Under the pieces are notes generated by a model. That model ran no database searches and was not told the DNA's origin. It saw nothing but the letters and a program-made list of their open reading frames with translations. Shown here piece after piece: positions 32,751 to 35,535 of a stretch of 35,535 nucleotides of DNA (position 1 is its first letter; every line of letters starts with the position of its first letter). Source of the DNA: an archaeon. GTDB taxonomy: Archaea; Thermoproteota; Nitrososphaeria; Nitrososphaerales; Gagatemarchaeaceae. The stretch spans positions 1 through 35,535 of the forward strand of contig JAKACC010000007.1 of assembly GCA_021796515.1 (NCBI GenBank). The letters are read 5' to 3'. The translations under genes and the position numbers were made by a program.

Positions 32751-33086
32751 TCATCGTTTCTCAGAGAATAGCAACTTCAGGGCGAAGTCGAGGTGAGACA
32801 GGGCCTCCATCCCCCTGGTGGTGATGGAATACTCTTCATGCCCGCCGACCGGTTCGACCCTGACCAGGCCCCCCGCGGCGAGCAACCCCATGTAGTCCGG
32901 GAGCCTGTCGTAGGGGATGTTCGTGACTCGTGCCAGCCTCGAGGGGATCTGCGGACCTGACGCCAGGGCCCGGAGGAGCTCCCAGCATATCACGGTCGTG
33001 TCCCTGTTCTTCAACGGCCCGCTTGACAAAAGAGGGACGATATGAACGAATTGCGCTCTCAAAACGAGAGCACAACTTGAGAGCAC
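32751..33086 (-). CDS. Winged-helix protein
   Basis: This frame of 111 residues contains a winged helix (WELLRALASGPQIPSRLARVTNIPYDRL in outline, then GLLAAGGLVRV, and a wing EEYSITTRGMEAL), resembling small archaeal regulators that control neighbouring genes. The conserved part starts around residue 28. The true start is unsure: GTG 33086 puts the repeats at 33055-33088 inside the gene; TTG codons at 33062 or 33029 would exclude part or all of them. It is divergent from the degenerate-ATPase operon and probably regulates it or itself through those repeats. Confidence 0.72.
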   Translation of the reverse strand: MLSSCALVLRAQFVHIVPLLSSGPLKNRDTTVICWELLRALASGPQIPSRLARVTNIPYDRLPDYMGLLAAGGLVRVEPVGGHEEYSITTRGMEALSHLDFALKLLFSEKR

Positions 33087-33132: not shown

Positions 33133-34356
33133 ATGAACGAGGTCGCCGGCTGGCTAGGCTATTCCCTGGACAGGCCAGGGGGGCGGATAGGGGTGAGGGG
33201 GCTCGGCGACAGGGTCCTCCTCCTCGGGAGGCAGGCAGGCAGACTCGCGTCGCTTTACTCCTATTCAGCGGCCGAGGCGGGGATGAAAGTGGCTGTCCTC
33301 GACGTCGACGGCTCTGTCTCTCCTGACGTCCGCGGATACTACGACACATACGACTACAGCTCGATGCTGTACGAGGCGTTCCGCCTGGAGGGGGAGGACG
33401 CCATGCACGGGCAGCTCGTGGCGGGCGCCTACGCCGCCGCCCTCGACCTCACGCCAGAGGAAGAGGCGATCCTTTCGGCAGCGCTGCAGAAGCTCTCAGC
33501 GCAGAACGACCTGGCCACGCCCACCTCGCTCTACGACGCCCTCGGAGGGGTAGAGGGGTTCAGGGGGTTCTACGTAGACAAGCTGAGAGGGAGGATCGGT
33601 GCGCTGAAGCTCCTCGACGCCACCAGGGCGGAACCCTTCGACAGGCTGACTTTCGAAGGCGCCCTGGTAGATTTCTCTTCCGCTCCCTATCCACAGGCGG
33701 CCGAGCTCGCTGCCTGCTTGTACGTCGCCAAAGTCCTCTATACGGCGAGGTCTTCGGCCTTCCGCTCCGATGCGCTTCTGGTCACAGGGGCTCACCGGAT
33801 CTTCAGGAGCCTGACCAGGTTCCAGCACTCAGGGAGGCTGATGGCGCACCTCCTCGAGTTCCCCGCCCCCCTGGTCCTGGCCACGCAGATCCCCGCGCTC
33901 ATGAACGACCGCCTCCTAGAGTCCATGCCTGTCCGGGTCTACTCGAGCGAGGCGTGGAATGCGAGGAGGAACTGGAAGCAGGCGGCGGCCCTGGCATGCT
34001 CGTTCATCGTCTGCGATGACAGGTCGGGGGCGTCGTCGGGGTTCGTCCCCCGCTTTGTCAGGCCGAAGCGCCCCGCTGAAAGCCCGGCCAGGCCAGGGAC
34101 TCATGTCGTGGTGAACCGCGGGCTGACGAGGACCATCCTCGAGGATGTCGTGAGGTTCGACACGGCCAGCAGGCAGTCGGTGGTGATGTATCTATCCGCC
34201 ATGTTCCTCGCGTCAGACGTGGAGGCAGAGCTCGACCGGCTCCATTCGGGAGGGTTCCTGATCCTGGAGCCCAAGGAAAACGGGTCGGGTCCGAAGATAT
34301 TCGCATACACGGTGACCGAGGCCGGAAGGCGCCTCCTCCGGGGGATGACTGAATGA
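33133..34356 (+). CDS. HerA/VirD4-like ATPase relative with degraded nucleotide-binding motifs
   Basis: This 407-residue protein looks like an inactive member of the HerA/VirD4 ATPase group. The strand-loop-helix where Walker A belongs reads LLLGRQAGRLAS (29-40), with no GKS/T. The Walker B place reads DALLVTGAHRIF (213-224), where HerA-like proteins have DEAHR. The downstream segment VLATQIPALMNDRLLESM (248-265) still looks like the sensor and arginine region of that family. The C-terminus (about 345-407) is a likely winged helix. A RecA-family gene overlaps its end by four bases. It is plausibly a DNA-binding or regulatory partner of that recombinase; this is inference and the fold assignment is by eye. 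Confidence 0.72.
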   Translation: MNEVAGWLGYSLDRPGGRIGVRGLGDRVLLLGRQAGRLASLYSYSAAEAGMKVAVLDVDGSVSPDVRGYYDTYDYSSMLYEAFRLEGEDAMHGQLVAGAYAAALDLTPEEEAILSAALQKLSAQNDLATPTSLYDALGGVEGFRGFYVDKLRGRIGALKLLDATRAEPFDRLTFEGALVDFSSAPYPQAAELAACLYVAKVLYTARSSAFRSDALLVTGAHRIFRSLTRFQHSGRLMAHLLEFPAPLVLATQIPALMNDRLLESMPVRVYSSEAWNARRNWKQAAALACSFIVCDDRSGASSGFVPRFVRPKRPAESPARPGTHVVVNRGLTRTILEDVVRFDTASRQSVVMYLSAMFLASDVEAELDRLHSGGFLILEPKENGSGPKIFAYTVTEAGRRLLRGMTE

Positions 34357-35363
34357 TCGAGCACATCAGGACCGAGTGCGCAGCCGTTGACGGGCTCACG
34401 GACGGGGGGCTGGCGACCGGGACAATCACCCAGATATTCGGTGAGAAGGCCCTCGGAAAGAGCATAATCTCTTTCCAGGCTGCCTGCTCCGTCGCCGCCT
34501 CGGGAGCGAGCGCTGTGATACTCGACACCGAGCAGTCCTACTCCAGCTACCTCGTCCCTTACTGGAAGGACAGGATGTCCAAGAGGTTCGGGAAGGAGTT
34601 CAACGTGGCCGAGGTCAAGCTTGAGAGGGCTCCGAAGGCCTCGCCGAAGAGGAGGCCCGTCACGCGCGGGGAGCTCATCAACGCCGTCGACGGCGCGCTG
34701 AGTCACCTGGGGGTGTCGTACACGGACGCACACCTCGGCGCAGTGGCTGACATATTCTCCCCCGACTTCAAGGTAGAACTCCCTCAGAAGGGGCCGTCGG
34801 TGCTGGTCTTCCAGACCCCCGAGGTTGTTGACCTCCTGAACCTCCACGGCATCGACGCGGCCAAAGAGGTGTCGAGTGGCGGCAGGGTCGAACTGAAGAT
34901 GAGGCAGACCCCAACATACCAGTCGGCCCTCCACCACATAGTCAGAGAGACCGGGGCCAGGCTCGTGATCTACGACTCCATCTCGGCCCCTTTCAAGTCC
35001 TCCTTCCCGAGCACCCAGGACCTCCCCGCCAGGAGCGCCGGCCTCGCCATGCTGCTGGCGCACGCCCAGCGCCTCTGCATCGAATTCGGCATAGCGGTAC
35101 TGGTGACCAGCCACGTCTCCATCGACCCCATCAACCCTTGGGACAGAATCCCTTACGGCGGGATCATACTCGGACACGACGCCAAGTTCTCCCTGGAGCT
35201 CACGAAGTCCCGGGCGTCGCGGAACAAAGACGGTAATCCGATGGCGATGAACCCCGACGAGAAGGACGCGTGCACCAAGGCGTTCTGGGCTGCGAGGCAC
35301 CCGGCCCTGGAGGAGTACTCGAGGTTCGCCTATGCCCGCCAGGACGACGAGGGGTTCCACTGA
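34353..35363 (+). CDS. RecA-superfamily ATPase, RadB-like recombinase paralogue
   Basis: This 336-residue protein has a RadA/RadB-type core: GGLATGTITQIFGEKALGKS with Walker A at 30-37 (K36), VILDTEQSY (55-63), Walker B LVIYDS (204-209), a loop VTSHVSIDP where RadA has TNQV, and the closing YGGIILGHDAKFSLELTKS motif. There is no N-terminal helix-hairpin-helix domain, as in RadB. About 100 residues (85-187) are inserted between the first and second halves, without resemblance to the family. Such paralogues assist RadA in recombination repair. It overlaps the previous gene (ATGA) and the next one (TGATG), so three genes are coupled. Confidence 0.85.
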   Translation: MIEHIRTECAAVDGLTDGGLATGTITQIFGEKALGKSIISFQAACSVAASGASAVILDTEQSYSSYLVPYWKDRMSKRFGKEFNVAEVKLERAPKASPKRRPVTRGELINAVDGALSHLGVSYTDAHLGAVADIFSPDFKVELPQKGPSVLVFQTPEVVDLLNLHGIDAAKEVSSGGRVELKMRQTPTYQSALHHIVRETGARLVIYDSISAPFKSSFPSTQDLPARSAGLAMLLAHAQRLCIEFGIAVLVTSHVSIDPINPWDRIPYGGIILGHDAKFSLELTKSRASRNKDGNPMAMNPDEKDACTKAFWAARHPALEEYSRFAYARQDDEGFH

Positions 35364-35535
35364 TGGGGTGGGGAGCGCGAATGCTCGCGGTCTTAGCGGG
35401 GCTAATCGCCCTGGGTCTTGGCGCGTGGCCCATCTTCCTGCTGGCCCTGGTCTACCTCGTCTACTCCTTCCGTAAGCCGGGGGCCCAGCGCGCGGTCATA
35501 CTCAGGCAGCAGGTCCTGGCGAGGCCAGATCGGAA
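35363..35535 (+). CDS. Membrane protein, 3' partial
   Basis: The ATG overlaps the stop of the RecA-paralogue gene. Fifty-seven codons are visible: one hydrophobic hairpin or single long helix (MLAVLAGLIALGLGAWPIFL, then LALVYLVYSF) followed by a basic segment (RKPGAQRAVILRQQVLARP). No family can be named. The last nine bases match a sequencing adapter, so the final three codons may not be real. Confidence 0.55.
   Translation, partial: MGWGARMLAVLAGLIALGLGAWPIFLLALVYLVYSFRKPGAQRAVILRQQVLARPDR
35527..35535. other. Adapter-like sequence at the right edge
   Basis: The final nine bases, agatcggaa, equal the start of the common Illumina adapter (agatcggaagagc). Their position at the very edge suggests leftover adapter rather than genome. 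Confidence 0.45.

Follow-up and report, generated by a model that had tools for sequence, protein, structure and literature searches.

Mediator complexes built from RAD51 paralogues are well studied in eukaryotes, and non-catalytic RAD51 paralogues are known as partners that help to load or stabilise the recombinase. To our knowledge, the archaeal roots of such complexes are poorly known. These complexes, the Shu complex, the HerA–NurA resection complex and the Ced/Ted DNA import systems, in which a HerA-like protein goes together with a membrane protein as it does here, are the described systems that the present locus resembles most. In the window, by which we mean the whole 35,535-nucleotide stretch analysed (contig C14 of a 1.5 Mb archaeal genome in 114 contigs, 95.6% complete), three consecutive genes encode P1 (gene 1), a HerA-type protein that has lost its catalytic motifs, P2 (gene 2), an intact ATPase of the RadA/RAD51 type, and P3 (gene 3), a membrane protein (Table 1). 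A first-pass annotation of this DNA had described P1 and P2 as a degraded HerA-like ATPase and a RecA paralogue, and our analysis confirms that this observation is real. The related and near-identical loci come from metagenome-assembled genomes; G, C, L and f numbers are our handles for genomes, contigs, loci and families.

With HerA, VirB4, VirD4 and DndH, P1 shares the predicted fold over residues 1–315. It differs from them in having neither Walker A nor the first Walker B acid, in its C-terminal winged helix and in having a RadA paralogue, not NurA, as its neighbour; moreover, it begins straight at the ATPase fold, whereas the HerA rows align from about residue 110–150. P2 has the intact RecA/RAD51 core, the Walker motifs and the Rad51 Pfam match of RadA, RadB and the RAD51 paralogues, and the helix-hairpin-helix (HhH) domain that it lacks is missing from RadB as well. 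What sets it apart from RadA and RadB are scores under the family cut-offs, an insertion of about 90–100 residues, a very long tree branch (3.79) and a dedicated dead-HerA neighbour. With the Shu complex (SWS1–SWSAP1; Shu2–Psy3–Csm2–Shu1) five other archaeal families share SWIM and reduced RecA-like genes, whereas the profile used found no SWIM gene in the window's family; we know of no counterpart of the dead HerA or of the membrane protein in the Shu complex. HerA–NurA shares with our locus the HerA fold and a recombination setting, but no nuclease gene is conserved beside P1 in the clustered loci (from visual inspection, no search having been aimed at NurA), and the window's genome also carries a separate HerA-type protein. 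The Ced-like locus that we came across (L281) differs in its intact P-loop and its neighbours. Among the titles and abstract openings returned by full-text searches of the open-licence literature, we found no description of a RadA paralogue with a dead HerA as its partner.

Results

The AlphaFold (AF2) model of P1, made from a 25-sequence alignment, has a pLDDT of 85.5 and a pTM of 0.87. A Foldseek search with this model gives HerA and VirB4 on top with TrwB close behind, the best E-value being 5.1e-8, to HerA. VIA-align superimposes P1 on the C-terminal domain of DndH with Z 20.9 (3.6 Å over 293 residues), on VirB4 with Z 20.4 and on HerA with Z 17–19; rows differing by no more than 1 in Z are tied, and DndH therefore ties with VirB4. 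Its top rows reach Z 17–21 over about 270–300 residues at about 8–14% identity, and the structural matches are confined to residues 1–318. Thus, the HerA/VirD4 outline ascribed to P1 in the first-pass annotation is borne out, and the fold is that of the HerA/VirB4/VirD4/DndH group, while P1 has no match in Pfam or NCBIfam. The C-terminal winged helix noticed earlier is also there: residues 329–406 form an HHH-EE-H unit in the model and give weak matches to MarR/PadR profiles.

Motifs of P1 were counted in 25 aligned relatives from the window's family, a chosen subset of the available loci. The P-loop (Walker A) motif occurs in 0/25 of them, while the active proteins taken as controls were positive in 6/6, 4/4 and 1/1 cases, and the loss of Walker A claimed earlier is thereby upheld. 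The claim that the Walker B acids are gone as well is correct for the window copy and not for the family as a whole: the first acid is present in 0/25 relatives, and the second, lost in the window, is retained in 9/25. Asp57, Arg222, Phe224, Ser271 and Trp275 are invariant in the alignment. The Walker B relic is aligned by hhalign with the active VEEAHRLLP of P4, a membrane HerA-type ATPase described below, at a low probability of 11%. Judging from its sequence, P1 should not hydrolyse ATP.

P2 matches the Pfam Rad51 family over the cut-off (8.4e-17), and RAD51 and RadA are among the best PDB matches of its model (Foldseek; pLDDT 80.9). The P-loop motif is found in 22/22 P2 relatives, and the DTE glutamate and the Walker B aspartate (YDS) are likewise invariant in 22/22. 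Since the protein starts at the ATPase core, it has no N-terminal HhH domain. The distance from DTE to Walker B is about 148 residues in P2 as compared to roughly 55 in RAD51 and RadA, which indicates an insertion of about 90 residues; in agreement with this, residues 80–190 are in large part unmatched in the profile alignment to RadA paralogues. The first-pass annotation had called P2 an intact RadB-like ATPase with a 100-residue insertion. It is intact and the insertion is about 90–100 residues long, but P2 is not a RadB by the NCBIfam cut-off (61.7 bits, cut-off 172.4). The scores with NCBIfam RadA (59.9 bits, cut-off 361.15) and NF003301 (70.6 bits, cut-off 259) are also under their cut-offs, and the match to KaiC (1.2e-4 in the Pfam scan) is weak, far below that to Rad51.

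The two genes overlap by 4 bases, and gene 3 begins on the last base of the gene 2 stop codon. This agrees with the earlier remark that a membrane protein follows with an overlapping start, P3 having hydrophobic N-terminal helices. An overlap of 4 bases between the P1 stop and the start of P2 is seen in 19 of 22 loci and one of 8 bases in 1 locus, while in 2 loci they are 1 base apart; these counts depend on the start codons we chose. Conservation of the pair, like the fold of P1, had been set beforehand as a test of the first-pass proposal, which withstood both. P1 is present in 32 of 61 genomes (the window's own and 60 relatives), i.e. in 32 of the 37 that belong to the window's family. In a sample of 151 genomes of the order it is found in 28, every one of them among the 33 members of that family. 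P2 (E<=1e-100) is present in 26/151 genomes, all with P1; in the remaining two genomes with P1 (G014 and G031) the contig ends within or just after P1. The pair is adjacent throughout the family wherever contigs allow, and, as described below, a RadA paralogue is the partner in other families too. P3 is present in 27/151 genomes, contig-edge fragments counted, the match in G018 being P4 instead. Upstream of P1 most loci have two divergently oriented genes, one for a winged-helix protein and one for a small membrane protein.

Between the window and six relatives dN/dS is 0.16–0.35 for P1 and 0.06–0.16 for P2, with the reservation that synonymous changes are high in some pairs. These ratios indicate that P1 is under purifying selection. 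Because the pair is conserved and dN/dS is low, the occurrence of P1 beside P2 is more than chance. A decaying pseudogene can be ruled out for P1 with these ratios and a reading frame that is open in 25/25 relatives. A plasmid or viral origin is rejected as well: P2 has no match in plasmids, and there is no P1 relative in viral contigs. A second copy of genes 1-2-3 with in-frame stops was seen in G023 (G023:C66:276628-279865), which has intact copies on its other contigs. As G023 is contaminated (6%), the copy on C66 may belong to another strain.

The same arrangement recurs far outside the window's family. A profile of P1 matched 5 of 398 genomes of the phylum, 2 of them in the window's genus, and the best match outside that genus (G288, E 2.4e-9) is a 468-residue dead HerA with a C-terminal winged helix that aligns with P1 at a profile probability of 95.8. 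In G288 and its relatives 19/81 genomes gave a match, some weak or fragmentary, and a profile built from 14 dead-HerA proteins matched 57/398 genomes of the phylum. We read 25 dead-HerA loci, 15 from the first searches and 10 of 14 further places matched by this last profile; the other four places (L281, L285, L286, L287) and, beside the first 15, L214 hold ordinary HerA-type proteins with a P-loop and were left out. The other families concerned are f20, f41, f44, f49, f51, f52, f57, f59 and f63. The genes stand in a fixed order: a divergent winged helix-turn-helix gene, then those for a membrane protein (about 180–250 residues, a membrane hairpin at its N terminus), the dead HerA, a small protein and a RadA paralogue with an HhH domain. 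The RadA paralogue follows the dead HerA in 24/25 loci; in the exception, L275, the contig stops before that point. It is cut by the contig end in L183; the dead HerA is broken in L209 and masked in L279. With the simple gene finder used, the membrane gene is unclear in L208 and L209 and the small gene in L206 and L213. The small protein (about 100–140 residues; L276:7289-7666, L274:6941-7318 and equivalents) has no Pfam match of weight.

These proteins lack a P-loop as P1 does: at its expected place it is found in 0/14 relatives from f20 and f52 (one chance match lies in a C-terminal tail) and in 0/10 of the further ones. Profile comparisons over most of the length gave probabilities of 96.1 for A6–A1 and 98.0 for A9–A1, where A1 is the gene 1 side and A6 and A9 are dead-HerA proteins of other families, 100 for A9–A6 and 99.3 for A9 against active HerA, while controls against RadA gave 0.2. 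Another RadA over the family cut-off is present besides the module copy in 7/7 and 9/10 module genomes, the tenth being 45% complete. In G354, G339 and G404 the module RadA is itself over the cut-off, and a better-scoring RadA is also present. The RadA beside the dead HerA is therefore an extra copy. P2 is homologous to the RadA paralogues of other families (probability 98.3), and in a tree of 52 sequences it forms one group on a branch of 3.79, while the others fall into more than one group. The idea that P2 descends directly from the RadA paralogues of other families was dropped on account of this split and this branch. As a separate observation, in the window's genus the main RadA is interrupted just after the P-loop Gly-Lys (G000:C89:3980-6412, locus L226; also G015 and G022). 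The inserted segment looks like an intein, beginning with CVAGDT and ending with HN before Ser; in G005, G033 and G034 the gene is uninterrupted.

In f52, f51, f44, f49 and f41 two more genes follow the RadA paralogue. One encodes a SWIM-motif protein of about 102–133 residues, with CxC..CxH in all six sequences read (CxHxxA in 4, CxHxxS in 2); the Pfam SWIM model gave 0.058 in one protein and no match in three others scanned. The other encodes a reduced RecA-like protein of 130–207 residues, in which the P-loop is intact in G258 and missing in the others read. A profile of the SWIM protein matched 7/20 genomes at E<1e-29. In five of these the gene adjoins the RadA paralogue, it being noted that proteins of those five genomes had helped to build the profile, and in G354 and G339 it lies elsewhere. 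According to PMC6316741, the pattern CxC..Xn..CxHxxA is characteristic of Shu2/SWS1, which act together with RAD51 paralogues.

In near relatives P3 is about 346 residues long, with hydrophobic helices in the first 100 residues and a soluble C-terminal domain. The window's copy is cut, and its residues 14–346 sit on contig C56. The last nine bases of the window (35527–35535) read AGATCGGAA and differ from L031 and C56; C14 and C56 overlap ahead of them. AGATCGGAA is the beginning of the common Illumina adapter, and the contig end and the window's last gene 3 residues are probably artefacts.

The N-terminal membrane part of P3 (first 100 residues) resembles the start of P4 (hhalign probability 93.5). 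P4 is a membrane HerA-type ATPase of about 900–970 residues with an intact P-loop (6/6). It is followed by P5, a long protein whose first half looks low-complexity or disordered. P4–P5 pairs (L057:1072-6355, L128:2669-7433, L129:1249-5725) are patchy in the window's family. P4 was found in 8 of the 33 genomes of that family in the order sample (G008, G015, G018, G023, G027, G029, G125, G151), as broken pieces in G027 and G029. In G023:C88 and G027:C107 it comes immediately after P3, in G125:C12 about 7 kb separate the two genes, and in the remaining carriers it is elsewhere or on a different contig relative to P3. The window's own genome has no P4, its one match being a different HerA-type protein of 595 residues. 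In G151 (L167:5559-8891) the two divergent genes, winged-helix and membrane, are followed by a 131-residue frame holding an N-terminal piece of P1 and, directly after it, by P4–P5, and the locus looks as though P4–P5 had replaced the remainder of a second module. The C-terminal part of P5 shows, by eye, a G-D...E-x-K pattern that is imperfect in L128, L057 and L058. Assignment to the PD-(D/E)XK nucleases was not upheld, there being no Pfam or PDB match of weight, and we call P5 only nuclease-like. The idea that a P4-type translocase has been split into P3 and P1 is supported only in part: the membrane part of P3 resembles P4, but the comparison of P1 with P4 gave a probability of 11. The membrane proteins of other families gave 0.2 against P4, 0.2 against P3 and 16 against an active HerA-like protein.

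Table 1. Features of the P1–P2–P3 locus and its divergent neighbours; positions refer to the window.
Feature	Position	Strand	Remarks
Gene 1 (P1)	33133..34356	+	407 residues; HerA/VirB4 fold without catalytic motifs, C-terminal winged helix
P-loop relic, gene 1	33226..33255	+	residues 32–41, GRQAGRLASL, initial strand left out; only the first Gly is invariant
Walker B relic, gene 1	33772..33804	+	residues 214–224, ALLVTGAHRIF
Winged helix-turn-helix, C terminus of gene 1	34117..34350	+	residues 329–406; from model secondary structure and weak MarR/PadR matches
Gene 2 (P2)	34353..35363	+	336 residues; RadA/RAD51-type ATPase without HhH domain
Walker A, gene 2	34440..34463	+	GEKALGKS, invariant in 22/22
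Insertion-bearing region, gene 2	34602..34922	+	about residues 84–190; insertion of about 90–100 residues
Walker B strand, gene 2	34956..34976	+	Asp208 at its end
Gene 3 (P3), start	35363..35535	+	membrane protein, truncated where the window stops
Small winged-helix protein (HTH_45 / Sso10a-like)	32751..33086	-	divergent; kept beside P1–P2 in most loci
Membrane protein, 133 residues	32320..32721	-	divergent, downstream of the winged-helix gene and conserved together with it

Discussion

The one constant of the loci is a dead HerA–winged-helix protein beside an extra RAD51-type ATPase. Since non-catalytic RAD51 paralogues are known as partners of the recombinase, we favour a mediator complex as the explanation. 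In this proposal, which we put forward tentatively and as slightly short of an even chance, the dead HerA would bind DNA and serve, close to the membrane, as scaffold for a RadA paralogue dedicated to it. P2 would bind ATP and probably DNA, the cell's main RadA or both, and would be the ATP-dependent part of the complex; without the HhH domain it probably forms no long filaments by itself. P1 has kept the fold and the winged helix, and translocation is not powered; it is therefore most likely a DNA-binding scaffold or a loading platform for P2, analogous to the way non-catalytic RAD51 paralogues serve their partners. P3, or elsewhere the hairpin protein encoded just upstream of the dead HerA, may tie such a complex to the membrane. 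The presence of active P4–P5 in some relatives may link it to DNA translocation. The interpretation offered by the first-pass annotation is thus supported in part: an adaptor role of the dead ATPase, a role in repair and a membrane link are inferred from the gene order and from what is known of these families, while a role in DNA segregation has no support of its own.

Several observations weigh against the mediator complex. The winged helix of P1 could make this protein a transcription regulator. The homology of P3 to the membrane protein of other families has a probability of 0.2 only, and by profile the SWIM protein is absent from 7/7 window-family genomes searched and from G329, and gave no match of weight in 5 genomes of f20 (one at E 0.28). 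Moreover, P2 and the other RadA paralogues are not one clade, and the partner may for this reason have been recruited more than once. A wider form of the same idea is an ancient recombination complex spread over the whole phylum, in which one half of a membrane HerA/VirB4 translocase, dead but retained, would bind DNA as a scaffold at the membrane and load a dedicated RadA paralogue; in some lineages SWIM (Shu2/SWS1-like) subunits and reduced RecA-like ones would join it. Archaea would then have, tethered to the membrane, a counterpart of the RAD51-paralogue/Shu mediators of eukaryotes, with the window's family having a streamlined form; we regard this as possible but rather doubtful.

It is important to note that the patchy P4–P5 genes bear on two other explanations. 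If P1 and P3 were a dead, reduced copy of a HerA-type translocase working with active P4 and nuclease-like P5, as in a membrane DNA-translocation or uptake apparatus resembling the crenarchaeal Ced system, P2 would load recombinase on the incoming strand. The placing of P4 next to P3 (G023:C88, G027:C107) or about 7 kb from it (G125:C12) agrees with this, as do its intact P-loop, the likeness of the N-terminal membrane parts of P3 and P4 (local matches) and the fact that both divergent genes, winged-helix and membrane, also occur as copies near P4–P5 in L130 and L167. However, P4 is carried by a minority of the family and is missing from the window's own genome, and in the clustered loci genes 1–3 have no conserved channel, pilin or nuclease partner, which makes the uptake apparatus unlikely. 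The HerA-like proteins and the PD-(D/E)XK-like protein could also act on foreign DNA in a defence or genome-conflict system, like DndFGH or a HerA–nuclease pair. DndH is the best structural match of P1 (tied with VirB4), and the patchily distributed P4 matches the PADLOC models HerA and mad8 (best 1.6e-12). Against this, the PADLOC models match none of P1, P2, P3 and P5 at E<=0.1, genes 1–3 are kept across most of the family at low dN/dS, and relatives of P1 and P2 are missing from viral contigs and plasmids, respectively; defence is in our opinion improbable, the least probable of the explanations considered.

A regulatory complex would have P1 as a winged-helix DNA-binding regulator, P2 as an ATP-dependent KaiC-like switch controlling it and P3 as a membrane sensor. 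The winged helix of P1, the divergent small winged-helix gene and the weak KaiC-type matches of P2 fit such a complex, but P2 fits RadA/RAD51 far better than KaiC (8.4e-17 vs 1.2e-4). Moreover, in other families the dead HerA is accompanied by RadA paralogues with an HhH domain and by SWIM proteins, which point to recombination; we rate regulation as quite unlikely, somewhat below DNA uptake.

Returning to the mediator complex, the pairing of a dead HerA with a RadA paralogue recurs in distant archaea and is therefore probably the sign of a complex, partly linked to the membrane, that assists DNA recombination and has been overlooked. It would also supply a clear example of a HerA/VirB4 ATPase that was inactivated and yet retained as a structural part. 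The cluster offers a concrete set of proteins for asking how recombinase loading was organised before eukaryotes.

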